A stretch of DNA of 64,000 nucleotides, taken from NCBI GenBank assembly GCA_017470985.1, contig JAFUXA010000009.1, forward strand, positions 104,889 through 168,888. The letters run 5' to 3'. The DNA is from Lachnospiraceae bacterium. Lineage in GTDB: Bacteria; Bacillota; Clostridia; Lachnospirales; Lachnospiraceae. The notes beneath the pieces are model-generated. The model did no database searches and had not been told where the DNA came from. It saw only the letters and a program-made list of their open reading frames with translations. The translations under genes were made by a program, and so were the position numbers. This document shows positions 6,807 to 52,998 of this stretch, piece by piece. Position 1 is the stretch's first letter. The number at the start of each line of letters is the position of its first letter.

Positions 6807-8282
6807 ATGTATTATATAGGAATAGATTTAGGTACTTCATCTGTGAAAATGCTTCTGATGGATGGGGCAGGCAAGATACTCAAGATTACATCCAGAGAGT
6901 ATGATTTGGAATTTCCTCATCCGGGTTGGTCTCAGCAGAATCCTTATGACTGGTTTAATCAGTCTATGGATGGATTGAAGGAATTGATTGCTGACTGCGA
7001 CAAATCGCAGGTGGCAGGAATCAGTTTTGGCGGACAGATGCATGGATTGGTTGTATTGGATTCTGAGGATAATGTTATCCGTCCTGCAATTCTATGGAAT
7101 GATAATAGAACTGTGAAGGAAGTGGATTATCTCAATAATGTGGTAGGTAAAGATAAATTATCTCAGTATACAGCCAATATTGCTTTCGCAGGTTTTACAG
7201 CTCCAAAGATTCTATGGATGCGTGAAAATGAACCGGATAACTTCAATAGAATTGCCAAGATTATGTTGCCAAAGGATTATTTGGCATATAGACTATCTGG
7301 AAGTTTCTGTACAGATTATTCTGATGCTTCAGGCATGTTGCTTCTTGATGTGAAGAACCGTAAATGGTCTAAGGAGATGATGGATATCTGCGGAATCAGT
7401 GAAGCTCAGCTTCCTAAACTCTATGAGAGTTATGAGGTTGTAGGTACATTGCTTCCAGAGATTGCAGCAGAACTTGGATTGAGTTGTGATGTCAAAATCA
7501 TTGCAGGAGCAGGAGACAATGCGGCAGCAGCTGTGGGTACTGGAACAGTAGGTGATGGAAAATGTAATATCTCATTGGGAACTTCAGGTACAATTTTCAT
7601 TTCCAGCAAGAATTTCGGTGTTGATGACAACAACGCTCTTCATTCATTTGATCATGCGGACGGAGCATACCATCTCATGGGATGTATGTTGTCTGCAGCA
7701 AGTTGCAATAAATGGTGGATGGAAGAGATAATCGGAACCACAGACTTCGCAGGAGAACAGGCTGCCATAGACAAGCTTGGAGAGAATCATGTGTTCTTCC
7801 TTCCATATCTCATGGGAGAGAGATCGCCCCATAATGATCCAAATGCAAGAGGAGCCTTCGTAGGAATGACAATGGATTCATCTAGAACAGATATGACACA
7901 GGCTGTGTTGGAAGGTGTGGTTTTTGCGCTGCGTGATTCCTTTGAAGTTGCCAAGAGTCTGGGAATAGAAATTTCTAGAACCAAAATATGTGGAGGCGGA
8001 GCCAAGAGTCCCTTGTGGAAGACAATGCTTGCTAATATCTTGAATGTATCAGTTGATGTGGTGGAAACAGAGGAAGGTCCATCAATGGGTGGCGCTATGC
8101 TGGCAGCAGTTGGCTGTGGAGAATATGCTTCTGTTGAGGAAGCTGCAGATGCCATTGTGCGAGTGGTAGATACAGTTGAGCCTACACCTGAATTGGCAGC
8201 AAAATATGACAAGAGATATCAGGAATTCAAGCAGATATATCCAGCGCTAAAGAACGTGTTTGAAAATATTTGCAATAATTAA
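6807..8282 (+). CDS. xylB: Xylulokinase (FGGY family)
   Basis: A 491-residue FGGY-family carbohydrate kinase expected to phosphorylate D-xylulose with ATP. The N-terminal phosphate loop YYIGIDLGTSSVKMLLMD, GISFGGQMHGLVVLD, the substrate-site segment AILWNDNRT, CNISLGTSGTIF and the C-terminal GGGAKSPLW are all present, and the length is normal. The open frame reaches back to 6765, but AAAGGAG at 6795-6801 places the start at the ATG at 6807. Pairing with the upstream isomerase suggests a complete isomerise-then-phosphorylate route into the pentose phosphate pathway. A ribulose or fuculose specificity cannot be excluded. Confidence 0.9.
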   Translation: MYYIGIDLGTSSVKMLLMDGAGKILKITSREYDLEFPHPGWSQQNPYDWFNQSMDGLKELIADCDKSQVAGISFGGQMHGLVVLDSEDNVIRPAILWNDNRTVKEVDYLNNVVGKDKLSQYTANIAFAGFTAPKILWMRENEPDNFNRIAKIMLPKDYLAYRLSGSFCTDYSDASGMLLLDVKNRKWSKEMMDICGISEAQLPKLYESYEVVGTLLPEIAAELGLSCDVKIIAGAGDNAAAAVGTGTVGDGKCNISLGTSGTIFISSKNFGVDDNNALHSFDHADGAYHLMGCMLSAASCNKWWMEEIIGTTDFAGEQAAIDKLGENHVFFLPYLMGERSPHNDPNARGAFVGMTMDSSRTDMTQAVLEGVVFALRDSFEVAKSLGIEISRTKICGGGAKSPLWKTMLANILNVSVDVVETEEGPSMGGAMLAAVGCGEYASVEEAADAIVRVVDTVEPTPELAAKYDKRYQEFKQIYPALKNVFENICNN

Positions 8283-8322
8283 ATATATTTTATTGAGCAA
8301 AGGAATGTGAGATATAATATTA

Positions 8323-8360
8323 AAGAGTTGGGATGAATAATAATATTTATCTCAACTCTT
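8323..8360 (+). terminator. Hairpin after xylB (probable terminator)
   Basis: Twelve-base arms AAGAGTTGGGAT and ATCTCAACTCTT (one G-U pair) around an A/T loop. The following sequence ATGTTTATAG is only moderately T-rich. Confidence 0.55.
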
Positions 8361-8446
8361 ATGTTTATAGTGTATAATGTGAGATGAATAGGCTATGTGA
8401 CTTTGTAGCTGCAAGTTTAAATTATAGAGATGAGCGGGGGATAGAT

Positions 8447-9091
8447 ATGAGTAAAGGAATAATATTTGACATGGACGGAACTCTGTGGGACTCTGCAGAG
8501 AATGTGGCCAGAGCCTGGTCTAAAGTCCTGGGACAATACGGTTTTGGCGAGTATGCTGTTACCACAGAGGATATGTATAATGTCATGGGAATGACTATGG
8601 ATGATATCGCTGATAAGTTGTTTCCTTTTGTAGAAGGGGAAGAGAGAGCGGAACTGTTGGAGGCCTGCTGCATTGTGGAGAATGATTTCCTGGCAGAAAA
8701 TGGTGCCAACATTTATCCCAATGTGGAGAAGACCTGGTGGCGATTGCTTGATATGGGATATGACCTTTTCATTGTAAGTAATTGTCAGGCGGGATATATA
8801 GAAGCATTTCTGAAATATTATAAGCTGGATGAAATAGTGGAGGATTATGTATGCTTCGGAGATAATGGTTTGAGCAAGGCGGATAACATCCGTGAGATTT
8901 GTAAACGCAATCGCTTAGATGCTGCCGTATATGTGGGAGATATTCAGTCGGATTGTGATGCAACTCATGAGGCTGGCCTTCCATTTATTCATGCCACATA
9001 TGGCTTCGGCCAGGTATCAGATGCTGAAGCTGAGATAGGATCCCTTGAGGAACTTCCATTGATGATCGATTCTATATTTGAAATGTTATAA
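8447..9091 (+). CDS. HAD-family hydrolase, phosphoglycolate phosphatase-like
   Basis: About 214 residues of a haloacid-dehalogenase hydrolase. Motif I is IFDMDGTLWDSAE with the nucleophilic Asp, followed by a helical cap domain. Motif II is LFIVSNCQ, and motif III/IV is the Lys in LSKAD together with AVYVGDIQSDCDATHEAG. This layout fits Gph/PGMB-type small-phosphoester phosphatases. The open frame extends to 8384, but the ATG at 8447, after a purine-rich AGCGGGGG, gives the usual family N-terminus. The substrate is unknown. Confidence 0.82.
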   Translation: MSKGIIFDMDGTLWDSAENVARAWSKVLGQYGFGEYAVTTEDMYNVMGMTMDDIADKLFPFVEGEERAELLEACCIVENDFLAENGANIYPNVEKTWWRLLDMGYDLFIVSNCQAGYIEAFLKYYKLDEIVEDYVCFGDNGLSKADNIREICKRNRLDAAVYVGDIQSDCDATHEAGLPFIHATYGFGQVSDAEAEIGSLEELPLMIDSIFEML

Positions 9092-9133
9092 AAAGTGACA
9101 TATATTTTTTGGACAAAAAGAAAGGAACATATA

Positions 9134-9889
9134 ATGAGATTTATTTCTTGGAATGTAAATGGTTTGAGAGCTTGTGTAGGCAAGAATTTTCTGGAGGATT
9201 TTAATAAGTTAGATGCTGATATTTTCTGCCTACAGGAAACCAAGTTGCAGGAAGGACAGATTGAACTTGATCTGCCAGGCTATTATCAATACTGGAATTA
9301 TGCTGAGAAGAAGGGTTATAGTGGTACTGCAATATTTACCAAGGGAGAGCCAATCTCAGTGAAGCTTGGAATGGGCATAGAGGAACATGACAAGGAAGGC
9401 AGATTAATTACCTTGGAGTATGAGGATTTCTACTTCATTACATGTTACACACCAAATGCGCAAAACGAGTTGAAGCGAATTGATTATCGTATGAAATGGG
9501 AAGATGATTTCAGAGAATATCTCATGGAGTTGGACAAGACTAAGCCGGTTATTCTCTGTGGAGATTTGAATGTAGCCCACAATGAGATTGATTTGAAAAA
9601 TCCTAAGACTAATCGAGGTAACGCAGGATTTTCTGATGAGGAGCGCGGTCAGATGACGAAACTTCTGTCATCAGGATTTACAGATACATTCAGATATTTC
9701 TATCCTGACCAGGAACAGATTTATTCATGGTGGTCTTATAGATTCAAGGCCAGAGAGAAGAATGCCGGATGGCGTATTGATTATTTTATTACTTCGGATA
9801 GATTGCAGGACAAGCTGGTTGATGCCAAGATACATACAGATATCTATGGCTCAGATCACTGTCCGGTGGAGTTAGAGATTAATATATAA
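9134..9889 (+). CDS. xth: Exodeoxyribonuclease III (AP endonuclease)
   Basis: About 251 residues, full length for ExoIII/ExoA. The enzyme incises DNA at abasic sites and removes 3' blocking groups in base-excision repair. The N-terminal FISWNVNGLRA, the metal-binding Glu in CLQETKLQ, GDLNVAHNEIDL, the WWSYR motif and the catalytic SDHCPVELEI end are all present. A GTG at 9095 is in frame, but AAAGGA at 9121-9126 positions the ATG at 9134. It follows the HAD gene by 42 bases and may share its transcript. Confidence 0.94.
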   Translation: MRFISWNVNGLRACVGKNFLEDFNKLDADIFCLQETKLQEGQIELDLPGYYQYWNYAEKKGYSGTAIFTKGEPISVKLGMGIEEHDKEGRLITLEYEDFYFITCYTPNAQNELKRIDYRMKWEDDFREYLMELDKTKPVILCGDLNVAHNEIDLKNPKTNRGNAGFSDEERGQMTKLLSSGFTDTFRYFYPDQEQIYSWWSYRFKAREKNAGWRIDYFITSDRLQDKLVDAKIHTDIYGSDHCPVELEINI

Positions 9890-9977
9890 TTCATTGTAGT
9901 ATAGAAATGTTTTTTCTTAGACTGGGTAAATAATATACGAAATATGGTATTGGGGAAGAGTTAATAAGGAGATACTA

Positions 9978-11333
9978 ATGGCTAAAGATACAACAAAGAG
10001 CCTGACTACAGGCAGTCCTACAAAATTAATTATTGGTTTCGCTCTTCCACTTCTTGTGGGTATGCTTTTTCAGCAATTCTACAGTTTGGTGGATACTATA
10101 ATTGTAGGTAAGACTCTGGGAGTAGACGCCCTGGCGGCAGTTGGCTCAACCGGTTCTATCAATTTCATGATTATAGGATTTGCCATGGGTATATGTAGCG
10201 GATTTGCTATTCCTGTAGCTCAGAGATTTGGTGCAGAGGACTACAAGAGCATGAGAAAGTTCGTGGCAAACAGTGTGTGGCTATCTATTATTATCTCTGT
10301 GGTGATGACAATTGTAGTAGTGGCTCTCACCAGACAGATTCTAATATGGATGAATACGCCTGACAATATTATTGAGCAGGCTTACTCTTATATAGTTGTA
10401 ATATTTGCAGGAATTCCAGTTATATTCCTATACAATATGACTTCAGGAATTATGCGTTCTCTGGGAGACAGCAAGACACCTGTCTATTTCCTGCTTATGG
10501 CTTCAGCTATAAATATAGCTCTTGATGTAGTCTTTATTGTATATATTGGCATGGGTGTAGAGGGAGCAGGATATGCTACTATTATTTCCCAGGCTATATC
10601 AGGGGTTGCCTGTCTGATATATATTATTTTCAAATTTCCATTGCTGAAGATTCAGCGGGATGAATGGCTGTGGGACAATGGTATGGTTTCAAGACTTTTA
10701 GGAATGGGCGTTCCAATGGGATTGCAGTATTCCATAACTGCTATCGGTTCTGTGATTCTACAGACTGCGGTAAATGGTTTGGGTTCTGCAGCTGTTGCTT
10801 CCATGACTGCGGCAAATAGAATTGCAATGTTTATGGTGACACCTTTTGATGCCCTTGGTTCTACAATGGCAACCTACGGCGGACAAAATGTGGGTGCTCG
10901 CAAGCTTGAGAGATTGAAATCAGGATTGAAGTCAGCTCAGCTTCTAGGTTCAGCATATTCTCTTGTGGCTCTTGCTATTATATATTTTGGAGCTGATTAC
11001 TTGTTACTTCTATTCCTGGATGCATCAGAGACTGCTATTATTGCAGATGCCAAGACATTTATGATTATACAGGCGCTGTTTTATATACCTCTTGTTGCTG
11101 TAAATGTATTTAGATTTATCATACAGGGAATGGGATTTTCTACCTTTGCAATACTTGCAGGTGTTATGGAAATGATTGCCAGAACGGCAGCAGCCTTTAC
11201 TTTAGTTCCATGGTTTGGATTCCTGGGAGCATGTTTTGCCAGCCCATTGGCATGGATATTTGCAGATGCCTTTTTGGTACCGGCATTTTTCGGAACATAT
11301 AAGAAGCTGGAGCAGAAGCAATCTAAGATTTAA
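9978..11333 (+). CDS. MATE-family efflux transporter
   Basis: A 451-residue integral membrane protein with about 12 hydrophobic segments. It shows the MATE signatures LPLLVGMLFQQFYSLVDTIIVG near the N-terminus and GVPMGLQYSITAIGSVILQT at the start of the second half. The family exports cationic drugs or metabolites in exchange for Na+ or H+. An AAGGAG sequence sits before the ATG, and the gene is closed by a bidirectional terminator. The substrate cannot be inferred. Confidence 0.93.
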   Translation: MAKDTTKSLTTGSPTKLIIGFALPLLVGMLFQQFYSLVDTIIVGKTLGVDALAAVGSTGSINFMIIGFAMGICSGFAIPVAQRFGAEDYKSMRKFVANSVWLSIIISVVMTIVVVALTRQILIWMNTPDNIIEQAYSYIVVIFAGIPVIFLYNMTSGIMRSLGDSKTPVYFLLMASAINIALDVVFIVYIGMGVEGAGYATIISQAISGVACLIYIIFKFPLLKIQRDEWLWDNGMVSRLLGMGVPMGLQYSITAIGSVILQTAVNGLGSAAVASMTAANRIAMFMVTPFDALGSTMATYGGQNVGARKLERLKSGLKSAQLLGSAYSLVALAIIYFGADYLLLLFLDASETAIIADAKTFMIIQALFYIPLVAVNVFRFIIQGMGFSTFAILAGVMEMIARTAAAFTLVPWFGFLGACFASPLAWIFADAFLVPAFFGTYKKLEQKQSKI

Positions 11334-25986: not shown

Positions 25987-26049
25987 ATTAAAAAGATGTT
26001 GACATGGCATCTGGCCAGTGTTATCATATCTTTAATTTGATAAAGCTTT

Positions 26050-26329
26050 AAACTGATGACGGAGAGAAGTACCTCTGTATGATGGCTCAATAGAGAGCTG
26101 CGATGGTGGGATGCAGTGAGATAGTACTTAGGGAATGGACTCCTGAGGGCACAGTCAAATGTATATTTTATATACAGAGTATTCTGTGACGCGAGGCATG
26201 CGTTAATTGCCGTAGATATATAGGTATCTAGCTAAGTGCATAGTGTCGAAGCTATGAATTCAAGGTGGCACCGCGGATGGTAAATTCGTCCTTGATGGAG
26301 ACATGAGATCTCTGTCAGGGGCGTTTTTT
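26050..26329 (+). promoter_or_regulatory. Tryptophan-specific T-box leader of the trp operon
   Basis: A tRNA-sensing T-box riboswitch upstream of trpD. The T-box sequence AAGGTGGCACCGCGG lies at 26262-26276. The specifier loop holds GGGAATGGACTCC, with the Trp codon UGG at 26136-26138. The UGGC in the T-box would pair with a GCCA tRNA end, matching the G discriminator of bacterial tRNA-Trp. A Stem I AGTA/GA-rich region lies before the specifier. The competing terminator is CGTCCTTGATGGAGA with TCTCTGTCAGGGGCG plus TTTTTT (26287-26329). Uncharged tRNA-Trp should permit read-through. Confidence 0.93.
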
Positions 26330-42291: not shown

Positions 42292-43218
42292 ATGATTATA
42301 AGCAAGTATTTCGTTTATTTTATTTTCTATAGTTTTTTAGGATGGATTTATGAGACCATTTTCTGTACTATCAAAGGTGGGAAATGGGAAAACAGAGGAT
42401 TTCTCTTTGGCCCTATATGCCCTATTTATGGAGTGGGGGCAGACACCATGATGATTATTCTGGATGTGGTTCACCATTACACCGGGGGAGGGTTTGAGTT
42501 CACCTGGTGGCAGATATTTATCATTGCATTTTTCGGAAGCATAGTGCTGGAGTATGTCACATCTTATGTCCTTGAACGGAAATTTCACGCGGTATGGTGG
42601 GACTATAGCAATATTCCGCTAAATATACATGGCAGAATCTGTCTGCCTGCATCCCTGGGATTTGGTTTCGGAGGACTATTGGTTGTATATTTTATCATTC
42701 CTCGTTCTGTGGGACTTGGAAGCAATATTCCGCCTCTGGCAATGGAGATTATGTCCCTGGTATTTATGGCATTGCTGGCTGCTGATTTGACATTAACTGT
42801 CAGCGCTCTTACAGATTTTGAGAAATATGTTGCCGGCTTTGAGGATAATGTGAACAAGAAGATGGATGCCTTCGTTGATGGTATTGCTGAAAAGGTGGAA
42901 AATGCCGGAAGCTTCGTGACAGAGAAAGCAGAGAGCGCCACAGCTTATGTGACAGAGAAAAAGGAAAATGCTACTGCTTATGTGAATGAGAAAAAAGAGA
43001 GCGCAACTGCTTATGTGAATGAGAAAAAAGAGAATGCCACAGCTTATATGGCTGAGAAGAAAGATACATGGATTGAAAATGCTGCCTCAATGAAGGCATC
43101 CAAGAGTAAAATGTATCAGTCGGCAGTAAAGCGTGTGCATCATTTCAAATACAAGAAGGTTGAGCCGAAGAAACTGGAAGACTTTATCAGGGAATTAAAA
43201 TCCAAGAAAAAACACTGA
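42292..43218 (+). CDS. CmpB-type putative ABC transporter membrane protein with 11-residue repeat tail
   Basis: A 308-residue protein. The first ~185 residues are membrane-embedded and carry the pfam06541-type pattern (YSFLGWIYETIFCTIKGGKWENRGFLFGP, IYGVGADTMMIIL, ERKFHAVWWDYSNIPLNIHGR). The transport role of this family is only presumed. The C-terminal half is soluble and charged, with five hendecad repeats at about residues 205-259 (consensus ATAYVNEKKES), encoded by 33-bp DNA repeats at 42904-43068, likely to form a long amphipathic helix. A basic tail ends in ELKSKKKH. Confidence 0.82.
   Translation: MIISKYFVYFIFYSFLGWIYETIFCTIKGGKWENRGFLFGPICPIYGVGADTMMIILDVVHHYTGGGFEFTWWQIFIIAFFGSIVLEYVTSYVLERKFHAVWWDYSNIPLNIHGRICLPASLGFGFGGLLVVYFIIPRSVGLGSNIPPLAMEIMSLVFMALLAADLTLTVSALTDFEKYVAGFEDNVNKKMDAFVDGIAEKVENAGSFVTEKAESATAYVTEKKENATAYVNEKKESATAYVNEKKENATAYMAEKKDTWIENAASMKASKSKMYQSAVKRVHHFKYKKVEPKKLEDFIRELKSKKKH
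42904..43068 (+). repeat. Five 33-bp coding repeats (hendecad helix)
   Basis: Five in-frame 33-base units encode AGSFVTEKAES, then ATAYVTEKKEN, ATAYVNEKKES, ATAYVNEKKEN and ATAYMAEKKDT. The 11-residue period suits an extended amphipathic or coiled helix. Confidence 0.92.
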
Positions 43219-43488: not shown

Positions 43489-44268
43489 ATGAATAAAGAA
43501 ACTAACGATGCAAAAATTCTTGCTTTGGCAGGAAAGGGCGGTGTTGGTAAGACTTCTTTGGCTGCAGTAATTGTGAAATTGCTGGTGGAAAATTTTCCGG
43601 ACAAGAAGGTTCTTGCTATTGACGCTGACCCGGCTGTAGGACTTTCTACTGCTCTAGGTGTAAATGTTGAGACAACCATTGATGATATTAGAAAAGAGGT
43701 TGTGGCTACTGCTGAGGATGGAGATACAAAAAGCGCGATAGAATTATTAGGAGAAGCCAGATACAAAATATTCGATGCTCTTGTAGAGCAGGATGGCTTC
43801 TCTTTTATTGCTGTCGGAAGACCGGAAGCAGCAGGTTGCTATTGCAAAATTAACAGTTATCTCAAGGAAGTTATTTCTATTCTGGCAGGCAACTACGATT
43901 ACATTGTAATCGACGGTGAAGCCGGTGTGGAGCAGATCAATAGACGAGTAATGGAAAAGGTTACACATCTGCTGCTGGTTACTGACTCCAGTAAAAAGGG
44001 AACACAGGTTGTTCAGACTATTAAGAAAGTGGCTGATGATTTGGTAATGTATGACAAGGTTGGCGTTGTGGCTAACCGCTTACCGGATTTGTCAGTGAAG
44101 GAATATATGGATTGCGGAGAACTTCCAATATTGTCATATATTATGTCAGATTCGTCGCTGGCTGAGTTTGATCTCAAAGGCGAAAATGTATTTTATTTGA
44201 GCGATGACGCTACTATTGTAAAGGGTATGCGTGAAGCTCTTGAAAATATGGGGATACTAAATAAATAA
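43489..44268 (+). CDS. CooC-like nickel-insertion ATPase (MinD/NifH-type)
   Basis: A 259-residue P-loop ATPase. It has a deviant Walker A, KGGVGKTS (Lys16-Ser23), the switch segment AIDADPAVGLSTALG and YIVIDGEAGVEQINRR. Cys117-Tyr-Cys119 matches the CXC motif of CooC, where it binds nickel or zinc at the dimer interface. CooC proteins deliver nickel to CO dehydrogenase; CooC-like proteins also serve acetyl-CoA synthase. No CODH gene is in the window, so the client is probably one of the neighbouring proteins. The ATG follows a weak GAGGGGA. It leads an operon with the genes to 51775. Confidence 0.85.
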   Translation: MNKETNDAKILALAGKGGVGKTSLAAVIVKLLVENFPDKKVLAIDADPAVGLSTALGVNVETTIDDIRKEVVATAEDGDTKSAIELLGEARYKIFDALVEQDGFSFIAVGRPEAAGCYCKINSYLKEVISILAGNYDYIVIDGEAGVEQINRRVMEKVTHLLLVTDSSKKGTQVVQTIKKVADDLVMYDKVGVVANRLPDLSVKEYMDCGELPILSYIMSDSSLAEFDLKGENVFYLSDDATIVKGMREALENMGILNK

Positions 44269-44278
44269 GGAGGGGCGA

Positions 44279-45481
44279 ATGAAAGATTTAAAGTATTTAT
44301 ATTATTTTGAAAAGCTTTTGGAAGATGCCAATAATGAGTTGATTCGTCAAGCCCAGGACGACGGCAAAATCTGTGTCGGCACTGTATGTGAAAATGTACC
44401 TGAACCATTATTGAATCTGCCGGGCACATTTTCAACAAGACTCCGTGCACCAAGAACAGGTTCAATGGAGATGGCCACATACTATCTCACAAGTTTCTTG
44501 TGCGAGTACAGTAGAGCTTTGTTGGAGAGAGCCATCGAAGGTGGATACAATTTCCTGGATTGTATCATAGCACCGGATGGATGTACTATGATGAATCGCT
44601 GCGTGGAGAACATGGAATTATTGAAGACCATGGGCGCAGGCAAAGAACATTTCTTCCATGAGTACATGGAAATTCCTCAGAAGGGTGATCAAAATGGTTT
44701 GGATCTGTATGTGTTGCAGTGTCAGAACCATATTTTAAATCCTCTGAAGGAGCATTATGGAATTGATGTTAGCGATGCTGCCATCAGACAGGCAGTTGAG
44801 GAGCACAACGAAGTATGCCGTCTCATTAGAGCAATCGGTGAATTCAGAAAGGAAGATAATCCTAGAATTACAGGGTATGAATATCATATTCTCACCATGG
44901 CAACTTATTGTGCACCGAAGTATCTCATTATCGATAAGCTTCGTGAGACTCTTGAGGAATTAAAGACCAGAGAGCCTGATGAGAAGAATAAGTACAGAGC
45001 CAGAGTGGTATTCGTAGGTTCAGAAGTTGATGATGTGGATGTAATCAAGTTGGTGGAGGACTCAGGTGCATATGTATGTGCTGACAGATTCTGCTACGGT
45101 TCATTCCCAGGTCGTGATGAGATTGTGTTAAATGATGATGAGGATGCTCTCACTCAGGTATGTCGTGCTTACCAGCAGAGAGGCGCATGCCCTAGATATT
45201 GGGATACTCCAAAGGTTGTAGGCCGAAGAGAATATGTAGCTCAGTTGGCAAAGGAATACAAGGCGGACGGTATCATCTATGAGCAGGTGAAGTTCTGCGA
45301 CCCTTGGGCTTACGAGAGAATGGTTGGTACTGTTGTACTGCGTGATGACTATGGTTATCCGGTACTTCAGGTAGACAGACCATATTCAATCGGTACTTCA
45401 GGTCAGATGCGTACCAGAGTACAGGCATTTGTGGAGAGTATTGAGATAAAGAAGATACAAGGAGGTGCGCTAAATGGCTAA
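44279..45481 (+). CDS. HgdB/BcrC-type 2-hydroxyacyl-CoA dehydratase-like Fe-S subunit
   Basis: A 400-residue protein of the 2-hydroxyacyl-CoA dehydratase/benzoyl-CoA reductase B-subunit family. It shares family landmarks, including CIIAPDGCTMMNRC, RVVFVGSEVDDVDVIKLVED, the Cys pair in YVCADRFCYG and the C-terminal QVKFCDPWAYERMV followed by GTSGQMRTRVQAFVESI. The cysteines are candidate [4Fe-4S] or double-cubane ligands. Such subunits receive an ATP-activated low-potential electron from an HgdC-type protein. The substrate is unknown, and the locus has no CoA-transferase or acyl-CoA dehydrogenase. It overlaps the next gene by 8 bases. Confidence 0.85.
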   Translation: MKDLKYLYYFEKLLEDANNELIRQAQDDGKICVGTVCENVPEPLLNLPGTFSTRLRAPRTGSMEMATYYLTSFLCEYSRALLERAIEGGYNFLDCIIAPDGCTMMNRCVENMELLKTMGAGKEHFFHEYMEIPQKGDQNGLDLYVLQCQNHILNPLKEHYGIDVSDAAIRQAVEEHNEVCRLIRAIGEFRKEDNPRITGYEYHILTMATYCAPKYLIIDKLRETLEELKTREPDEKNKYRARVVFVGSEVDDVDVIKLVEDSGAYVCADRFCYGSFPGRDEIVLNDDEDALTQVCRAYQQRGACPRYWDTPKVVGRREYVAQLAKEYKADGIIYEQVKFCDPWAYERMVGTVVLRDDYGYPVLQVDRPYSIGTSGQMRTRVQAFVESIEIKKIQGGALNG

Positions 45482-47039
45482 GGAAATCGGCGGCGAGGCC
45501 TTGGGTAGATTCTTTGCCGAGGGCAAGAAAGTTAGAAAAAGACGTGAGTGGCGTGGAGTCAGAGATACGTTTTACGATTACACCAGATGGCTGTATATCA
45601 TGTCTCAGCTGGTGAAATTTACAATGAAGCCTAGAAATGTAAAGGCAATGTTCCGTTATCGCTGGATGGCCAATTATCTGGCTGTTCCAATGATGGTTGA
45701 CAAGCATACACAGGGACTCAGAGGACCATACCTTCGTATGTGTCACTTGGAGCAGGACCTGGTTGTATATGATGTAGCTAAACTTCTGGACAACCTGTTC
45801 AGAGGAGATAGAAGAATAGGAAATGACAAGGAATTCTCCAAGAAGGTTGTACTTGTTGATGAGAACGAGATGACTGCAGTGATGATGGGATTCCCAACTT
45901 TGAAGGGATTGTCTCGTGAGACACCTTCCACATATGTATCTGTTCTTTTGAATCAGAGAGCTGCAGAGCATTATATTGATGTGGCTCAGGAGTACGGACT
46001 TCCGGGAGATGTATGTCCTATGCCTGAGGCTGAGGCCGGAGTATCAATCGATGATGACGCTCCAATCCTTGGTGCCTGCGCAGTGCAGTGTAATACAACC
46101 TGTGATGGTTCTCTTATGGGAAATGGTGTTATTGCAAAGCGTCTTGAACTTGAAGATGATATTCCAATCTTCCAGCTTGCTACACCTCTTCGTCATAAAG
46201 AAGAAGATACACAGGAGTATGCGGCACAGGAAATCAGAAATGCTATCAAGTTTATCGAGGAGCATACCGGTGAGAAATGGGATTGGAAATATTATTTCGA
46301 ATGTGCAGCTCGAGTAAACGAGTCTACAAGACATCGTAACGAATGGCTTGATATGAACAAGACAGATTATCCACAGATATTTGGTTCAAACCTGGCTCTG
46401 TACACAGAGACCAATTACATGGCTATCTGTGGTAAGGTTCCTGAGTTTGTAAATGTAGATAGAAAGCTTTCTGCCCTTGCCAACCAGGCATACAAGGACA
46501 AGATGATGATGGCCAAGGAATATCGTCATCGTGCAATCGTATGGGGCGTGCAGTCACATTACTACATGGACTTCCTGTTATGGATATTGAATTGCTGGGG
46601 AATTGTACCTCTTACAGATATGCTTTCCATGGTAAATACAGAGATGATTGCAGAGACAGACACTCCGGAGAACAGGGAGCAGGCATATTATGATATGGCA
46701 ATGCTTACAGAGAACATGATTATGAGAAACCGTACTCACGGTGGATACAAGGTATTGCTTGATGAACTGTGGGAGTTCTGCGAGGAGTTCAATGCAGATA
46801 TGGTTATTCTCTGGGAGCATATGGCTTGCAAAGCCTTGGATGGTATGCATGGTCTCTTCGAGGAGAAAGCTAGAGAAAAAGGAATTCATCTGGTATGGGT
46901 AACACATGATCTGTTTGATGCCCGTGTGGTAACAAGACAGGGTGTAAGAGATCAGATTAACAGATACATGAGAACCGTATTTAAAGAGGAACCACTTGAT
47001 CCATCATTAGAAGTACTTCCGGATGATGCATCATGGTAG
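45474..47039 (+). CDS. HgdA/BcrB-type dehydratase-like Fe-S subunit, extended
   Basis: A 521-residue partner of the preceding subunit. It is larger than the usual ~430-480 residues and has a basic N-terminal ~75-residue extension (GKKVRKRREWRGVRDTFYDY). A Cys-rich stretch (ACAVQCNTTCDG) and WILNCWGIVPLTDMLS plus a C-terminal HLVWVTHDLFDARVVTRQ follow. It belongs to the broad HgdA/B superfamily, also home to double-cubane-cluster proteins. The ATG is inside the end of the upstream gene behind AAGGAGGTGC, so the two are translationally coupled. Confidence 0.8.
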   Translation: MAKEIGGEALGRFFAEGKKVRKRREWRGVRDTFYDYTRWLYIMSQLVKFTMKPRNVKAMFRYRWMANYLAVPMMVDKHTQGLRGPYLRMCHLEQDLVVYDVAKLLDNLFRGDRRIGNDKEFSKKVVLVDENEMTAVMMGFPTLKGLSRETPSTYVSVLLNQRAAEHYIDVAQEYGLPGDVCPMPEAEAGVSIDDDAPILGACAVQCNTTCDGSLMGNGVIAKRLELEDDIPIFQLATPLRHKEEDTQEYAAQEIRNAIKFIEEHTGEKWDWKYYFECAARVNESTRHRNEWLDMNKTDYPQIFGSNLALYTETNYMAICGKVPEFVNVDRKLSALANQAYKDKMMMAKEYRHRAIVWGVQSHYYMDFLLWILNCWGIVPLTDMLSMVNTEMIAETDTPENREQAYYDMAMLTENMIMRNRTHGGYKVLLDELWEFCEEFNADMVILWEHMACKALDGMHGLFEEKAREKGIHLVWVTHDLFDARVVTRQGVRDQINRYMRTVFKEEPLDPSLEVLPDDASW

Positions 47040-47117
47040 GCAGCAGTTTGACTGCATAATTAAATGTATTTAAATAGCATACAGACTATGATATTGGAAA
47101 TGTAGGAGGAATAAATA

Positions 47118-47918
47118 ATGAAATATTTTGGTGGATGTGATTCAGGTTCTACATATACAAAATGTGTAATTATAGATGAAAATGGCAAGATGGTAGCAGA
47201 TGTTACATTGAGAAGTCGCATCAATGCGGTTTTGTCTTGCGAGGAATCAATTGAACAGGCTATCGCTCAGGTGCCTGAGTTAAAGAGCGCAGATGATCTG
47301 GCATATCTGGTTGGTACCGGATATGGTAGAAATAAAGTACCTTCAGCTGATGAGAATATCTCAGAGATCAGCTGCCATGCAATGGGTGTTCATGTGGCTG
47401 ATCCAAATGTCAAAGCCATCATTGATATTGGCGGACAGGATGTCAAAGGTATTGCAGTAGACCAAGATGGTACAGTTTTGAATTTTGCTATGAATGATAA
47501 ATGTGCTGCCGGAACAGGTAGATTCTTTGAGGCTATGGCAAGAGCATTTGAGATGTCACTTGATGATTTCTCAAATCTGTCATTAAAGGCCAAAAATGTA
47601 ATTCCAATCACAGCACAGTGTACAGTATTTGCTGAATCAGAGGTTATCTCACTTGTTGGAGAAGGAAAGCCGATGGATGAGATTGCAGCAGGTATTGAGC
47701 TTGCAGTAGCAAAGAGATGTTTTGTAATGTCGAAAAAAGCAGGTGCAGTTGATGCTATTACATTGACAGGCGGATGTGCCAAGAATGCAGGATTGAAGGA
47801 AGCAATCGAGAGAGTATTGAATCTCAAAGTTATTGACTTGCCTATCGATCCACAGCTTATGGGTGCTCTTGGTGCAGCAGAATTTGCCCGTCAAAAAGGT
47901 ATGGCACAGGCCAGATAA
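47118..47918 (+). CDS. CoA-substrate-specific enzyme activase (HgdC/BadF-type ATPase)
   Basis: A 266-residue ASKHA-fold ATPase of the archerase type. It has the phosphate loop CDSGSTYTKCVIID, AIIDIGGQDVKGI and the adenosine loop ITLTGGCAKNAGL. Two cysteines, Cys129 (NDKCAAGTGRFFE) and Cys168 (ITAQCTVFAESEV), match the residues that ligate the bridging [4Fe-4S] cluster in HgdC. It hydrolyses ATP to push a low-potential electron into the dehydratase-type subunits. AGGAGG precedes the ATG. Confidence 0.92.
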   Translation: MKYFGGCDSGSTYTKCVIIDENGKMVADVTLRSRINAVLSCEESIEQAIAQVPELKSADDLAYLVGTGYGRNKVPSADENISEISCHAMGVHVADPNVKAIIDIGGQDVKGIAVDQDGTVLNFAMNDKCAAGTGRFFEAMARAFEMSLDDFSNLSLKAKNVIPITAQCTVFAESEVISLVGEGKPMDEIAAGIELAVAKRCFVMSKKAGAVDAITLTGGCAKNAGLKEAIERVLNLKVIDLPIDPQLMGALGAAEFARQKGMAQAR

Positions 47919-47929
47919 GGAGGATAGAT

Positions 47930-48097
47930 ATGGCAACATTTTTACACGTATTACTTGTGATAGCTATCGTACTTGTATGCTTATTTGTGCTTAGCTTCAT
48001 AGTATATTTCTTCAATCTGGATATGAAGCTTACGGCAGCTATTGAGCCATGGTTACTTAAGCACTATGACAAGATTGACAGAGATAAGCATTTATAG
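47930..48097 (+). CDS. Small membrane protein (55 aa) within the low-potential redox operon
   Basis: A 55-residue frame with a strong SD (AAGGAGGAT) 11 bases after the activase stop. Residues 5-29 are a hydrophobic helix (FLHVLLVIAIVLVCLFVLSF), and the remainder is charged, ending YDKIDRDKHL. It is too short to have been called by ORF length, but its spacing, RBS and codon use match the operon. It might anchor one of the partners at the membrane. No homology is recognised. Confidence 0.68.
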   Translation: MATFLHVLLVIAIVLVCLFVLSFIVYFFNLDMKLTAAIEPWLLKHYDKIDRDKHL

Positions 48098-48124
48098 GAA
48101 ATAAGTATTTATAGGAAATTTGAC

Positions 48125-48844
48125 ATGAAACTATATGATGAGGTTATTGCCCGTACCAATGGCATTTTACAGAACTATGAGGCTAAGTCCTTGCAGGTGG
48201 GCTGTGAGAAATGGACTGATGTGGGCAAGGCAAAGATGATATTGCGTTCTGAGATGGCGTACGAACTGGGTGGTGAGAAGCTTCCGGCAATAGGTTGCAC
48301 CATAGTCACCACATCAACAGAGTTGGTGCCACAGGATGAAATTATCTTGATTGGTCCTGATATCTCAGAGATTAAACAGGATCAGCCCTATGCGAGAATT
48401 ACATTTGTGAGAACAGATGAATCTGCTATGGGACAGGGTGATGAATTATATAATGCAATTCATCGAATAGAATATTTCCGCTATCATGTATTTCCAGAGG
48501 GCTTTATGATGAGAGTATCAGCAGCAAGCGAAAGAGAATGCGTGAGAGTAGGAAGCGAGGCGATTGACAAGGGATTGGATTTTACCAAAATTGGTAATTT
48601 CATGATAGATGCGCTGCATGTGCACAAGGACGTGCAGGCTGTAAAGGTAATATTTGTCACATTGCCGGAGGCAGATTATGAGGGATTGCGTGAGAATCAG
48701 CGCATGACCAAGAAAATTACAGATACAATTGATCACATGTTAAAGGATGTGAATATGGACTGCCACAGCTGCAGTTTACAGGAAGTCTGTGAAGAAGTTG
48801 AGGGAATGCGGGAATTACATTTCGGTATTTCCAAAAACTTTTGA
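48125..48844 (+). CDS. Stand-alone acetyl-CoA synthase (AcsB/CdhC) middle-domain-like protein
   Basis: A 239-residue protein. From about residue 75 its order of motifs follows the central domain of acetyl-CoA synthase beta: ILIGPDISEIKQDQPYARI matches EVIGPDIDQIPEGS..., FMMRVSAASERECVRVGSEAIDKGLDFTKIG matches WLRVSKDAVAKGF and ...GEILVAKM, and DCHSCSLQEVC matches the SCVLCQSFAPNHVC stretch that ligates the A-cluster. The CODH-contact domain and the nickel-bearing C-terminal domain of AcsB are missing. Only three cysteines remain in the C-terminal part. The function is unknown; the match is from memory, not an alignment. Confidence 0.6.
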   Translation: MKLYDEVIARTNGILQNYEAKSLQVGCEKWTDVGKAKMILRSEMAYELGGEKLPAIGCTIVTTSTELVPQDEIILIGPDISEIKQDQPYARITFVRTDESAMGQGDELYNAIHRIEYFRYHVFPEGFMMRVSAASERECVRVGSEAIDKGLDFTKIGNFMIDALHVHKDVQAVKVIFVTLPEADYEGLRENQRMTKKITDTIDHMLKDVNMDCHSCSLQEVCEEVEGMRELHFGISKNF

Positions 48845-48883
48845 TAAATGTAAAGTATTTTATAAGAAAAGGAGTATAAGATT

Positions 48884-51775
48884 ATGGATATGGAAAAGTA
48901 CAACCAGTGGCCTGCAAACCACCGCAATGACAATCCACCTAGCCAGAAGATTATTGAGCTGGGCAAGAAAATCACTGACGTGGCCGGACACATGATTGGT
49001 GGAGTAAAGGCAGAGGACCCGGAGTATTGGGGACTTGCAGAGATCATTGATGAAGAGCAGGCTGAAATCTGTCTCACAATGAAGAGAAGACATCCTTATA
49101 CATTTAAGGAATTGTGTGATTTGAACAAAGACAAGGTCAATAAACATGGAGTAGATGGTTTCCAGGAAATCATTGATTATCTGTGTTATGTTGGTGTGTT
49201 GGAGTACGATTACGGTTATCATTATGATCACAATGGTCGTACAGCACCTCAGAGTGAGAGAAGATATATATTATCAATGTTTGTACCGGGCTCTGCAGAG
49301 ATGTTTAATATTGAGGAACTTACAGATGGAACACATGACAATCCTCGTTTGGATCAGCATCCTGATTTGGCAGCTTTCTTCGAGAGAATGACATATATTC
49401 CACTTGAGGGAATTACACAGATGGTTCCTCCTGGAGGCGCAGGAATTGGTATGCATGTCATTCCTGTTGAGTCAGCAATCGAGATGAATAATGAAGCTGT
49501 TGATCTTGAGAAGTTATCATACTGGTTAAGCAAGTATGAAGGTAAGATCGGTGTAGCAAGATGTTCATGTCGTGCTTCAAGAAAGGTTATCGGCGAAGGT
49601 TGTGCTGATGACGATTGGGGATGGTGTATCGGTGTCGGTGATTTCGCTGACTATTGCCGTGAGACTGGTAAGGGTCATGACATTACCAAGGAAGAAGCTC
49701 TTGAAATCTTAAAGCGTGGTGAGGAAAATGGATTTGTACATCAGGTAACAAATATTGATGGAGAGAACAAGATCTTCGGTATCTGTAACTGTAATGTAAA
49801 TATCTGTAATGCTCTTCGTACATCACAGTTATTTAACACACCAAATATGTCAAGAAGTGCGTATGTGGCACATGTTGACAAGGAGAAGTGTGTAGCTTGT
49901 GGACGATGCGTAGAAGTATGTCCTGCAGGTGCTACAAGACTTGGACAGAAGCTTTGCAAGGCTGACGGAACAGAAGTACAGTATCCAAAGCATATCTTGC
50001 CTGATCATATTAAGTGGGGTAAGGAATTCTACGATCCAGATTACAGAGATAATAATAGAATTAATTCTCACAAGACTGGTACAGCTCCATGTAAGACAGC
50101 TTGTCCTGCCCATGTTGCAGTTCAGGGTTACTTGAAGAAGGCAGCACAGGGTGATTATGATGCAGCTCTTGCACTTATCAAGAAGCAGAATCCATTCCCT
50201 GCTGTATGCGGACGTATCTGTAACAGAAGATGTGAGGATGCTTGTACAAGAGGAACAATTGATGAGCCAATCGCTATTGATTCAGTCAAGAGATTCCTGG
50301 CAGATAGAGATCTCAAAGCTGAGACAAGATATGTTCCTAAGAAGTTAATTCCAGCATCTATCCATAGAGATGGATGGGATGAGAAGATTGCCATTATCGG
50401 TGGTGGTCCAGCTGGTCTTTCTGCTGCTTATTATCTGGCAGAGAGAGGATACAAGCCTACAGTATTTGAGAAGAATGCAGAGGCAGGTGGTATGCTTCGT
50501 TACGGTATTCCTTCATACAAGTTGGAGAAGGACGTTATCGCAGCAGAAATCGATGTTATGCGAGAGATGGGTGTAGAGATCAAGACCGGCGTAGAAGTTG
50601 GCAAGGATATCTCACTTAACGAGTTGAGAGCTCAGGGATACAAGGCATTCTACATTGCAATCGGATGTTCTGCAGGACGTCGTCCTGGAGTACCTGGAGA
50701 TGATGCAGAAGGTACATTTACAGCTATCGATTATTTGGCAGAAGCTAACTGTGGTGGCAAGGAATTCACAGGCCGCGTAGTAGTTGTCGGTGGTGGAAAT
50801 GTTGCTATTGATGCTTCAAGAGTTAGTGCAAGAAACGGTGCTTCTGAAGTTACACAGCTTTGCCTGGAGTCAGAGGCAGAGATGCCTGCAAGCGATGAGG
50901 AAGTAAGAGAAGCAGGTGAAGATGGAGTTGCAATTAAGTGCGGCTGGGGACCAAAGGAAGTTCTCGTAGAGAATGGCAAGGTTACTGGAATCGTATTTAA
51001 GAAGTGCTTATCAGTATTTGAAGAAGTTGATGGCAGAAAGAAGTTTGCTCCTAAGTATGATGAAAATGATACAATCACAATCCAGTGTGATAGAGTTATC
51101 TTCGCTGTAGGTCAGCAATCAGTATGGGGCGACCTTTTGAAGGATGAGAAGGTAGAATTCAGAGGACCTGCTCTTGTAGCTGATGGTCTTACATATCAGG
51201 TACAGGGCGCACCTGACCTCTTCATCGGTGGAGATGTAATGACAGGACCTAAGTTCGCAATCGATGCTATCGCAGCAGGACATTGGGCTTCTGAGTCACT
51301 TCACAGATATGTACAGGGTGGTCATATGACTATCGGTAGAAACAGATGGGAATTCATCGAACTTGATAAGGGTGATATCCTTGTTGAGCAGTATGATAAC
51401 TCATCACGTCAGTCTGAGGGAATAAATCCTGCAGTTGGTGACAAGTCATTCAAGGAGCACAAGGTACCATTTACAGAGGAACAGGTAAAGATTGAGACAT
51501 CAAGATGTCTTGGATGTGGTGCTACAATCATTGATGAGAATAAGTGTATCGGATGTGGACTCTGTACAGTACGTTGTGAGTTCGATGCTATTCACTTACA
51601 TCGTGATCATCCTGAGTGCACTAACATGGTTACAGCAGAGGATAAGTTCAAGAAGATTATCCCTTACGAGCTGAAGAGAGCTTGCAAGATTGTATTTACT
51701 CCAAAGACAGCAGAGGAGAAAGCCCAGATCAAGGCTGCAAAGGAACAGTTCGCAGCCAAGGGGAAGAAACTCTAA
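48884..51775 (+). CDS. 963-residue Fe-S/FAD oxidoreductase: Cys-rich and ferredoxin domains fused to a GltD-like unit
   Basis: A large fusion. Residues 1-~330 hold a domain with RCSCRASRKVIGEGC (from Cys227) and ICNCNVNICNAL, a possible extra cluster. A [4Fe-4S] ferredoxin motif CVACGRCVEVCPAG starts at ~336. The GltD-like module follows: CKTACPAHVAVQGYL, PAVCGRICNRRCEDAC, the FAD fold IAIIGGGPAGLSAAYYL (~506) and the NAD(P) fold VVVVGGGNVAIDASR (~633). Near the C-terminus are RCLGCGA and CIGCGLCTVRCEFDAI (875-906), a second ferredoxin pair. It probably moves electrons from NAD(P)H towards the low-potential acceptors of the operon. Codon use is that of a highly expressed gene. Confidence 0.82.
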   Translation: MDMEKYNQWPANHRNDNPPSQKIIELGKKITDVAGHMIGGVKAEDPEYWGLAEIIDEEQAEICLTMKRRHPYTFKELCDLNKDKVNKHGVDGFQEIIDYLCYVGVLEYDYGYHYDHNGRTAPQSERRYILSMFVPGSAEMFNIEELTDGTHDNPRLDQHPDLAAFFERMTYIPLEGITQMVPPGGAGIGMHVIPVESAIEMNNEAVDLEKLSYWLSKYEGKIGVARCSCRASRKVIGEGCADDDWGWCIGVGDFADYCRETGKGHDITKEEALEILKRGEENGFVHQVTNIDGENKIFGICNCNVNICNALRTSQLFNTPNMSRSAYVAHVDKEKCVACGRCVEVCPAGATRLGQKLCKADGTEVQYPKHILPDHIKWGKEFYDPDYRDNNRINSHKTGTAPCKTACPAHVAVQGYLKKAAQGDYDAALALIKKQNPFPAVCGRICNRRCEDACTRGTIDEPIAIDSVKRFLADRDLKAETRYVPKKLIPASIHRDGWDEKIAIIGGGPAGLSAAYYLAERGYKPTVFEKNAEAGGMLRYGIPSYKLEKDVIAAEIDVMREMGVEIKTGVEVGKDISLNELRAQGYKAFYIAIGCSAGRRPGVPGDDAEGTFTAIDYLAEANCGGKEFTGRVVVVGGGNVAIDASRVSARNGASEVTQLCLESEAEMPASDEEVREAGEDGVAIKCGWGPKEVLVENGKVTGIVFKKCLSVFEEVDGRKKFAPKYDENDTITIQCDRVIFAVGQQSVWGDLLKDEKVEFRGPALVADGLTYQVQGAPDLFIGGDVMTGPKFAIDAIAAGHWASESLHRYVQGGHMTIGRNRWEFIELDKGDILVEQYDNSSRQSEGINPAVGDKSFKEHKVPFTEEQVKIETSRCLGCGATIIDENKCIGCGLCTVRCEFDAIHLHRDHPECTNMVTAEDKFKKIIPYELKRACKIVFTPKTAEEKAQIKAAKEQFAAKGKKL

Positions 51776-51883
51776 GCAAGAGAGGAAGCTCTGAAACGAG
51801 TAGCACTTGATATTTTATTAATCCTAGTTTATAGTAATTACTCGTAAGAGAATAATTATTAGGGCGCTAAAATTAAACAAATT

Positions 51884-51915
51884 AAGGCCTCAGCGTATAC
51901 TGGGGCCTTTTAATT
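51884..51915 (+). terminator. Terminator between the oxidoreductase and HypA-like genes
   Basis: Arms AAGGCCTCAG and CTGGGGCCTT around CGTATA, followed by TTAATTTT. It isolates or attenuates the HypA-like gene, whose SD starts 20 bases later. Confidence 0.8.
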
Positions 51916-51931
51916 TTGTCAGGAGGGTAGT

Positions 51932-52387
51932 ATGCACGAATTAGGAATAGTATTTTATATTGCAGACAAAGTAGAAAAGGTTGCTGCGGAAAATAACGTA
52001 TCTCAAATCAAGAGTGTCACAATGGAAATCGGAGAGGTGTCTACGGTTATTCCGGAGTATCTGGTAGATTGTTGGAATTGGAAAGCAGCGAAGAGTGATC
52101 TGCTAAAAGGCTGTGAACTGAAGGTCGATTTGGTTCCTGCTGTTACATTCTGCGAAGATTGCCAGCAGACATATGAGACTGTGAAATATGGTAAGACTTG
52201 TCCAAACTGTGGAAGTGGCAATACATATCTGGTACAGGGCGATGAGCATAACATCAAGGAGATAGAGGTTCTTGATGAAAATATGCAGCCAGGTGAGAAA
52301 CGTGAGGAATATATCGAGAGAGATTCTTCTATTGAAACAGGTGCTTATATGCCTATGGGTGATACCGAAGATATTCGTGAAGATTAA
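51932..52387 (+). CDS. hypA: HypA-like nickel metallochaperone
   Basis: A 151-residue protein. The MHEL N-terminus supplies the nickel-binding Met-His of HypA, and VTMEIGEVSTVIPEYL matches the core strand-helix. The zinc site is FCEDCQQTYE...CPNCGSG. It is longer than the usual ~115 residues, with an acidic C-terminal tail (EYIERDSSIETGAYMPMGDTEDIRED). HypA loads nickel into [NiFe]-hydrogenase or urease; neither is in the window, so its target here may be the adjacent nickel-type operon. AGGAGGGTAGT precedes the ATG. Confidence 0.85.
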   Translation: MHELGIVFYIADKVEKVAAENNVSQIKSVTMEIGEVSTVIPEYLVDCWNWKAAKSDLLKGCELKVDLVPAVTFCEDCQQTYETVKYGKTCPNCGSGNTYLVQGDEHNIKEIEVLDENMQPGEKREEYIERDSSIETGAYMPMGDTEDIRED

Positions 52388-52462: not shown

Positions 52463-52846
52463 TTAGTCCATCAATCCGATTTCTTTGCAATGCTTCTTGA
52501 TTGCAGCAAAGCTTTCAGGGCTTATGACATGCTCTACACGACAAGCGTCCTCCAAAGCGATATCCTCAGGAACGCCTAATTTAATAAGTGCACTAGATAC
52601 AAATTGATGTCTTTCATATATTGTCTCTGCAATTTTGCGCCCTTCATCAGTGAGAGTAATAAAGCCATTTTCGGATACTGTTATATGGTTCTTCTCTCTG
52701 AGATTTTTCATGGCAATACTGACGCTGGATTTCTTGAAATCCAACTCATTTGCTATATCAACTGAACGTACATTAGCCTGTCTTTGGCTGAGTACAAGAA
52801 TTGTTTCTAAGTAATTTTCTGCTGATTCATTTACATATGATTTCAT
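52463..52846 (-). CDS. DtxR/MntR-family metal-dependent regulator
   Basis: About 127 residues on the minus strand. The N-terminal winged helix (SAENYLETILVLSQRQANVRSVDIANEL, KKSSVSIAMKNLREKNHI, LTDEGRKIAETIYERHQ) and the dimer/metal domain (EDACRVEHVISPESFAAIKKH) follow the MntR/DtxR pattern. Candidate metal ligands are the Glu/His residues in ERHQF, DACRVEHVI and KHCKEI. There is no SH3 domain, as in MntR. TTTGGAGG fixes the start at the ATG whose last base is complement of 52846; a TTG further upstream overlaps the SD. Metal could be Mn, Fe or Ni. It faces the nickel-type genes. Confidence 0.88.
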   Translation of the reverse strand: MKSYVNESAENYLETILVLSQRQANVRSVDIANELDFKKSSVSIAMKNLREKNHITVSENGFITLTDEGRKIAETIYERHQFVSSALIKLGVPEDIALEDACRVEHVISPESFAAIKKHCKEIGLMD

Positions 52847-52998
52847 ATGGTCTAAAACCTCCAAATTATTTCTTACATAATATCATAATTGGGCCCACAA
52901 TCCAACGAGTGAAATTATTAAAAAAGCGGATATTTAATTAAGAAAGTATTAATAAGTATCAGACTCGAAATACCCCTCACGAAAAAAGAAAATAATTG

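Follow-up and report, generated by a model that had tools for sequence, protein, structure and literature searches.

A conserved gene cluster of Lachnospiraceae joins a predicted ATP-driven double-cubane reductase to a stand-alone acetyl-CoA synthase domain

In a 64,000-nucleotide stretch of a Lachnospiraceae bacterium genome (assembly GCA_017470985.1, contig JAFUXA010000009.1; hereafter the window), we examined a plus-strand gene group at positions 43489-52387 and found that six of its genes form a conserved unit, referred to here as the core. These encode a CooC-like ATPase, two HgdB-family subunits (HgdB-small and HgdB-large), an HgdC-type activase, a small membrane protein and ACSm, a stand-alone middle domain of acetyl-CoA synthase (ACS). 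With moderate confidence, we propose that the core specifies a membrane-anchored, ATP-driven radical reductase whose accessory proteins were co-opted from carbon monoxide dehydrogenase/acetyl-CoA synthase (CODH/ACS) and which is linked to NAD(P)H-dependent ene-reductases. A preliminary description of this DNA had reported seven open reading frames (ORFs) in a compact same-strand group; all seven are borne out with the families given, and an eighth gene that it missed lies at 47930-48097. The spacing is indeed tight: 10 nt separate the CooC and HgdB-small genes, the two HgdB genes overlap by 8 nt, and gaps of 78, 11, 27 and 39 nt follow between HgdB-large, HgdC, the small membrane gene, ACSm and a downstream flavoprotein gene, respectively.

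The order of the core genes recurs well beyond this genome. One genome per species was scanned with one 9-residue pattern, which yielded 495 relatives of ACSm, and the best 80 of these were studied. Among the named matches in that set, the nearest relative comes from a Lachnospiraceae metagenome-assembled genome (MAG) of water-deer rumen (83% identity in ACSm), and the hosts, by their labels as deposited, are mainly Lachnospiraceae, including Pseudobutyrivibrio, Roseburia MAGs and Butyrivibrio fibrisolvens 16/4, together with other Clostridia such as Clostridium gasigenes and Spirochaetes MAGs. The order CooC, HgdB-small, HgdB-large, HgdC, ACSm recurs among the related loci, and all four large upstream genes are present in 47 of the 56 that have 6.2 kb or more of sequence to the left of ACSm. 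The exceptions are five loci without an adjoining HgdB pair (L040, L060, L065, L067 and L088), one in which no HgdC was found (L074) and three with ACSm alone (L095, L104 and L105). The preliminary description had named a lack of conservation in other genomes as grounds for refuting its reading; the order instead recurs in Lachnospiraceae, other Clostridia and Spirochaetes. Besides the seven genes first reported and the small membrane gene, the commonest neighbor families reach at most 16 of the 80 loci. The core or pieces of it also occur in five loci (L036, L077, L079, L083 and L090) from MAGs labelled Treponemataceae, Spirochaetaceae or Spirochaetes, suggesting either cross-phylum transfer or mislabelled bins.

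In a family set of 299 genomes, ACSm (E <= 1e-8) and HgdB-large (E <= 1e-20) were found in the same 25, with one ACSm match each. In a class set of 332 genomes, nine had ACSm matches, two of which (G535 and G600) proved to be full-length ACS with open frames of 713 and 719 residues and were set aside; the remaining seven are exactly the seven with HgdB-large (E <= 1e-15). Three of the class-set core genomes (G000, G024 and G170) were also drawn in the family set. In nine genomes chosen because their ACSm locus has no adjoining HgdB pair (one of these loci, L099, has only 0.5 kb of upstream sequence), HgdB-large was found elsewhere in every case, with one to nine matches per genome, one of the eight in G337 being a fragment, and ACSm was single-copy in all nine. 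We fetched 40 regions around 41 other HgdB-large copies; every copy there has an adjoining HgdB-small, except that one ORF intervenes in L190 and L200. A tree of 51 HgdB-large copies, judged by its branching alone, places those of genomes G334-G336 in groups common to the genomes.

The eighth gene (47930-48097) encodes a small membrane protein of 55 residues that contains a single hydrophobic segment and ends in a polar tail; it carries the motif YFFNLDMKL...KHYDKIxRD, and no Pfam or NCBIfam model matches it at E 0.01. It is present in all 71 HgdC-ACSm intervals examined, the window included, 68 of which were called by script and three (L089, L102 and L103) by motif. A similar single-helix gene with variants of the NLDMK motif lies directly downstream of 21 of the 41 other HgdB-large copies (19 recognized by hydropathy, after L172 and L204 were dropped for want of the motif, and two by motif). 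Because of the copy-number pattern and the presence of this helix beside other HgdB-large copies, we regard HgdB-small, HgdB-large and the helix as the likely enzyme and ACSm as a probable accessory shared among the copies, and the 55-residue protein is a probable membrane anchor subunit. A Pfam scan of 20 neighbors of other HgdB pairs gave a pfkB-type kinase twice and no recurring function tied to the enzyme that would serve as a clue to its substrate. Among the multi-copy genomes, G334-G336 (L167-L186) and G337 are small (1.6-2.1 Mb) and combine six to nine HgdB-large matches with one ACSm.

We then asked what kind of enzyme the HgdB pair resembles. HgdB-small (44279-45481, 400 residues) and HgdB-large (45474-47039, 521 residues) match Pfam HGD-D with 287.5 and 126.5 bits, respectively, against a cut-off of 28.4, and the best solved relative of the small subunit is BzdN (8s02_B, E 3.6e-24). 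In the benzoyl-CoA reductase of the Bzd type, BzdN binds an [8Fe-9S] cluster through Cys36, Cys73, Cys100, Cys263, Cys293 and Cys327, and BzdO binds a [4Fe-4S] cluster through Cys95, Cys128 and Cys380 (PMC11971306). Read off the alignment, C37, C75, C102, C272, C304 and C340 of HgdB-small occupy the six BzdN ligand positions and are conserved in 57, 58, 58, 57, 58 and 58 of 58 rows. The same alignment output places cysteines at all six positions in the double-cubane cluster protein (DCCP), while the beta subunit of 2-hydroxyisocaproyl-CoA dehydratase (HAD) lacks them at two, C37 and C272. In HgdB-large, C181, C210 and C452 are invariant in 61 of 61 rows and all three line up with MbdO cysteines. 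Profile matches of HgdB-large extend to DCCP (E 3.1e-11), MbdO (6.5e-9), BzdO (4.7e-8) and HadB (5.1e-7). HgdB-small is thus predicted to be an [8Fe-9S] double-cubane subunit and HgdB-large a catalytic subunit with a three-cysteine [4Fe-4S] cluster. Their partner HgdC (47118-47918, 266 residues) scores 212.6 bits against the TIGR00241 cut-off of 125.4, as befits an ATP-dependent electron activase, and retains, in 70 of 70 rows, C129 and C168, which we take to serve the bridging [4Fe-4S] cluster.

The pair does not fall into any of the curated groups to which it is related. HgdB-small scores 95 bits against the BzdN equivalog cut-off of 453.8, and the score for the bzdQ model is 156 against 380.2. 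The double-cubane model NF040772 is the best NCBIfam model for both subunits, with 135.3 and 42.1 bits against a cut-off of 350, and the HadB and HadC equivalogs are missed as well (27.6 against 750 bits, and 88.8 for HgdB-small with HadC against 700). By these scores the pair is no ordinary member of the bzd, had or double-cubane equivalogs, and it seems to form a new branch within the superfamily of class I benzoyl-CoA reductases, 2-hydroxyacyl-CoA dehydratases and DCCP. With BzdNOPQ and its Mbd counterparts it shares a two-subunit reductase and an ATP-driven activase, the six [8Fe-9S] ligand cysteines of the small subunit and three invariant cysteines in the large one. It differs in having one HgdC instead of a BzdP/BzdQ pair, in roughly 90 additional residues of HgdB-large before the matched region (profile position 162 versus BzdO residue 74) and in a core that adds a membrane helix, CooC and ACSm. 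DCCP and its reductase, in turn, resemble the pair through that best model and an HgdC-like activase; however, DCCP consists of two identical subunits that each hold a double cubane (PMC11971306), whereas the window encodes two unlike subunits of which the small one holds the six ligand cysteines.

The family assignments could also point to an (R)-2-hydroxyacyl-CoA dehydratase of amino-acid fermentation with unusual neighbors, given the HGD-D and activase families and that HAD subunits are among the solved relatives. We consider this distinctly unlikely, as neither the 10 scanned proteins of the window nor the 20 scanned neighbors of HgdB pairs include a CoA transferase, a 2-hydroxyacid dehydrogenase or an acyl-CoA dehydrogenase, and HgdB-small combines the six-cysteine BzdN pattern with a HadC score far below its cut-off. 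The earlier suggestion that the HgdB pair and HgdC perform ATP-driven electron transfer stands at the level of family, with the qualification that the ligands of HgdB-small are BzdN/DCCP-like and not dehydratase-like.

The two remaining large proteins of the core have their relatives in CODH/ACS systems. CooC (43489-44268, 259 residues) is a CooC/AcsF-like P-loop ATPase whose best solved relative is CooC 3kje (E 1.5e-17), and the CXC metal motif C117-Y-C119, pointed out before, is invariant in 60 of 60 rows, the window included. ACSm (48125-48844, 239 residues) was likewise correctly recognized as a stand-alone ACS piece: it matches Pfam CdhC with 34.5 bits (cut-off 24), its family profile hits the middle domain of the ACS/CODH alpha subunit (residues 309-496, E 7.9e-9), and its residues 26-190 align with full-length ACS from nine loci with a probability of 88.8%. 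Against the full-length ACS model, it scores only 33.5 of the 800 bits set as cut-off. ACS homology ends near residue 190, and the A-cluster domain, presumably the one with the Ni-Ni site, is missing. What follows is a C-terminal motif, D-C-X2-C-X5-C-X-E-X-E-X5-H, whose residues D212, C213, C216, C222, E224, E226 and H232 are kept in each of 80 rows, which represent the window and 79 of the 80 loci; in a 25-row family alignment with more distant members, the three cysteines are invariant and H232 is present at 90% or more. The motif sits at the place of C-X2-C-X8-C-X9-C in full-length ACS (C473, C476, C485 and C495 of L207, which we take to hold the A-cluster cubane), a positional likeness that carries no alignment score, and by this likeness it may match the start of the ACS A-cluster domain. 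The spacings nonetheless differ, being 3-6-10 and ending in His in ACSm versus 3-9-10 and ending in Cys in full ACS. As an aside, two family genomes carry two full-length ACS genes in tandem, about 2.2-2.3 kb apart (L207/L217 in G028:C15 and L210/L218 in G154:C34).

CooC and ACSm thus resemble CODH/ACS components in an ACS middle domain and a CXC motif, whereas the window lacks CooS and ACS domains 1 and 3. Since cooS-cooC-acsB is the usual order in gut acetogens (PMC11338639), it is plausible that CooC and ACSm were co-opted together from such a locus. A degenerate or alternative CODH/ACS serving carbon fixation would make sense of a CooC beside an ACS piece, and a Lachnospiraceae acetogen without canonical CODH/ACS has been described (PMC7000372), but we regard this possibility as extremely improbable. 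Not only does ACSm comprise a mere 239 residues and stop short of the domain named above, but CooS scored above cut-off in 5 of 25 core genomes versus 61 of 274 others (p = 1), with full-length ACS in just one (G028) of those five, and a CODH link to the core was rejected on this distribution. The preliminary description had found no CODH, complete AcsB or hydrogenase in the window, and this holds for the genome as a whole, in which CODH (CooS), full-length ACS and [NiFe]-hydrogenase gave no match, a provisional result for a draft of 2.38 Mb in 35 contigs that is 88.8% complete. [NiFe]-hydrogenase, which has a match in 7 of 29 core genomes and none in this one, was also rejected as a client of the HypA described below. 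The nickel center inferred as possible in the preliminary description stays hypothetical. A more far-reaching idea, which we judge improbable, is that ACSm and CooC have been re-purposed to load nickel or a pre-built heterometal cluster into HgdB-large, making this a family of nickel-containing, membrane-bound Birch-type reductases; if true, it would define an enzyme class joining double-cubane ATP-driven electron supply to a Ni-Fe-S active site.

Downstream of the core lie a large flavoprotein gene (48884-51775) and a HypA-like gene (51932-52387). The flavoprotein, 963 residues with Fer4_20 and Pyr_redox_2 domains, had been described as a GltD-like fusion; instead it belongs with the Fe-S/FAD/NAD(P)H oxidoreductases of the IsrA type, a group for which neighboring HypA/HypB genes are on record (PMC10134865). 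IsrA is a putative isoprene reductase of 901 residues. Its CxC motifs occupy 180-182 and 254-256, Fer4 sites lie at 289-300 and also at 848-877, and its six-cysteine "cluster V" has been put forward as a possible site for nickel; of 988 IsrA homologues, 73% have HypA and 56% HypB nearby (PMC10134865). The window protein shares with IsrA and its clade 9 homologues the domain order, the spacing of 74 between CxC motifs (227-229 and 301-303), the six-cysteine site (C227, C229, C248, C301, C303 and C308, in 40 of 40 rows) and an adjoining HypA. It differs in its length, in having no HypB match within 1.5 kb and in its link to an HgdB-type core, which is absent from the neighborhood list in the available text of the IsrA study (PMC10134865). 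HypA itself (151 residues) passes the Pfam HypA cut-off with 106.7 bits, misses TIGR00100 with 73.4 against 88.1 bits, and retains His2, Glu3 and two CXXC motifs in 39 of 39 rows; by these features it is a HypA-like metallochaperone, as first proposed.

Of the 65 loci with at least 4.2 kb of downstream sequence, 37 have the flavoprotein gene in the next 3 kb of the same strand, and 35 have HypA there. An IsrA-type gene (called at E <= 1e-100, with two candidates scored per genome) is present in 20 of 25 core genomes versus 45 of 274 others (Fisher 9e-11, a p value that overstates independence, the genomes being related, some of them drafts, and their relatedness uncorrected). The idea that all these genes make up one reductive set therefore needs dividing: a low-potential system stands, but the flavoprotein and HypA are a second, separable module of the IsrA kind, known in kind, with an IsrA-type gene in those 45 genomes that have no core. 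In a multi-copy genome, an HgdB pair (L167) lies beside HypB, HypA and an IsrA-type gene, and in L195, L196, L198 and L199 an old-yellow-enzyme-like protein, nearest to BaiCD and bilirubin reductase though below their cut-offs, follows ACSm instead. The occurrence of two ene-reductase types beside one core suggests a second, ene-reducing step.

The proximity of the two modules raises the reverse possibility that the core serves to mature the IsrA-type flavoprotein, a scheme in which HgdC/HgdB and CooC/ACSm would build or activate cluster V and HypA would provide nickel. The adjoining genes in the window and in the 37 of 65 loci, together with the enrichment of IsrA-type genes in core genomes, speak for it, as does the comparison of cluster V to the ACS A-cluster and to double-cubane sites drawn by the IsrA authors (PMC10134865). 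Even so, we hold it to be unlikely. IsrA-type genes occur without the core in 45 genomes and the core without them in five; HypA lies within 1.5 kb of all 30 IsrA-type matches listed in the family, core or not (HypB near 18), so IsrA seems to be served without the core; and HgdB pairs multiply and diverge on their own.

In the radical-reductase mechanism that we favor, HgdC would hydrolyze ATP to deliver single electrons into the [8Fe-9S] cluster of HgdB-small, from which they would pass to a [4Fe-4S] cluster at the active site of HgdB-large; there a radical, Birch-like step would reduce the substrate. The 55-residue helix would tether the complex to the membrane, and such a location suggests a lipophilic or membrane-delivered substrate. 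CooC and ACSm may act as a shared maturation or cluster/metal-transfer unit for all HgdB pairs of a cell, while the IsrA-type flavoprotein and HypA could provide NAD(P)H-derived electrons or the final reduction of a conjugated double bond. Of this picture, the gene order, the co-occurrence, the copy numbers and the conserved ligands are observed, and the cluster types, the path of the electrons, the tethering, the part played by CooC/ACSm and the ene-reductase partnership are inferred.

A further rival reading is the hydrogenation of unsaturated lipids, for example that of rumen conjugated linoleic acid to vaccenic acid. The membrane helix of the core would fit, hosts include Pseudobutyrivibrio, Butyrivibrio fibrisolvens 16/4 and Treponemataceae MAGs, and IsrA is a proposed diene reductase, with an oleate hydratase near a homologue in two Acetobacterium species (PMC10134865). 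Against this stands the rumenate reductase, which is apparently membrane-associated and uses NADH and substrate at 1:1, with no ATP need described in the available text of that source (PMC4478896); its sequence is said to exist (Fukuda 2007, per PMC4478896). We consider lipid hydrogenation of this sort very unlikely.

Several observations weigh against the radical-reductase proposal. HgdB-large is remote from BzdO, as the profile E value of 4.7e-8 indicates, and by position alone the place of the catalytic BzdO His131, the third residue after the second ligand, is taken by a serine, S213, in 61 of 61 rows; because this serine is invariant, catalysis may differ from that of BzdO. No small membrane gene was recognized directly downstream of 20 of the 41 other HgdB-large copies. 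The absence of an IsrA-type gene from 5 of 25 core genomes and the occurrence of such genes without the core indicate that the link between the two may be indirect, and the Fisher value carries the relatedness of the genomes noted above. The role given to CooC and ACSm, finally, is one of association only.

To our knowledge, class I benzoyl-CoA reductases and DCCPs are the only systems that drive electrons into [8Fe-9S] double cubanes with ATP, and we know of no earlier role for an ACS piece outside CODH/ACS. Strict association with an isolated ACS domain would be a first role of that kind, and the literature searched lists no description of one. ATP-driven reduction of [8Fe-9S] double cubanes is documented for the two enzyme groups just named (PMC11971306), and a branch that has diversified, is apparently tethered to the membrane and reaches nine copies in a genome would extend this chemistry to further substrates. 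The core offers candidate targets for those anaerobic reductions of the gut and rumen that lack an explanation. We found no account of this gene set in the literature searched, which was mostly without subscription papers, and an earlier mention is possible. The methyl-selenium (mlp) clusters were considered as a parallel and dropped, as their gene set is different (PMC10418091).

We also surveyed regulatory features and surrounding genes. The flavoprotein and HypA genes are 156 nt apart with a terminator-like hairpin in between (51884-51909, plus strand), a weak call given eight such sites in the region versus 4.7 expected, and because of this gap and hairpin, HypA may be transcribed separately from the upstream genes. 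Promoter-like sites in the region are no more frequent than chance (26 found versus 27.9 expected). An Rfam scan gave no match near the cluster in the window and none in 6 of the 80 related loci, and a riboswitch or other RNA cue for a metal or cofactor was rejected for these sites; the sole Rfam match in the whole window is a T-box leader at 26047-26296. The host genome holds a second IsrA-type flavoprotein, 60-62% identical to the first (L206, G000:C2:40000-58000, positions 7644-10475, minus strand), and the 18 kb around it contain none of the HgdB core genes. Upstream of CooC, positions 42292-43218 encode a CmpB-like membrane protein (PF06541) with near-identical C-terminal repeats of the KKENATAYVNE type that are weakly LEA-like. 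On the other side, a DtxR/MntR-type metal regulator is encoded on the minus strand at 52463-52864, convergent with HypA, and a homologue of it is found at varying distance in 14 of the 80 related loci.

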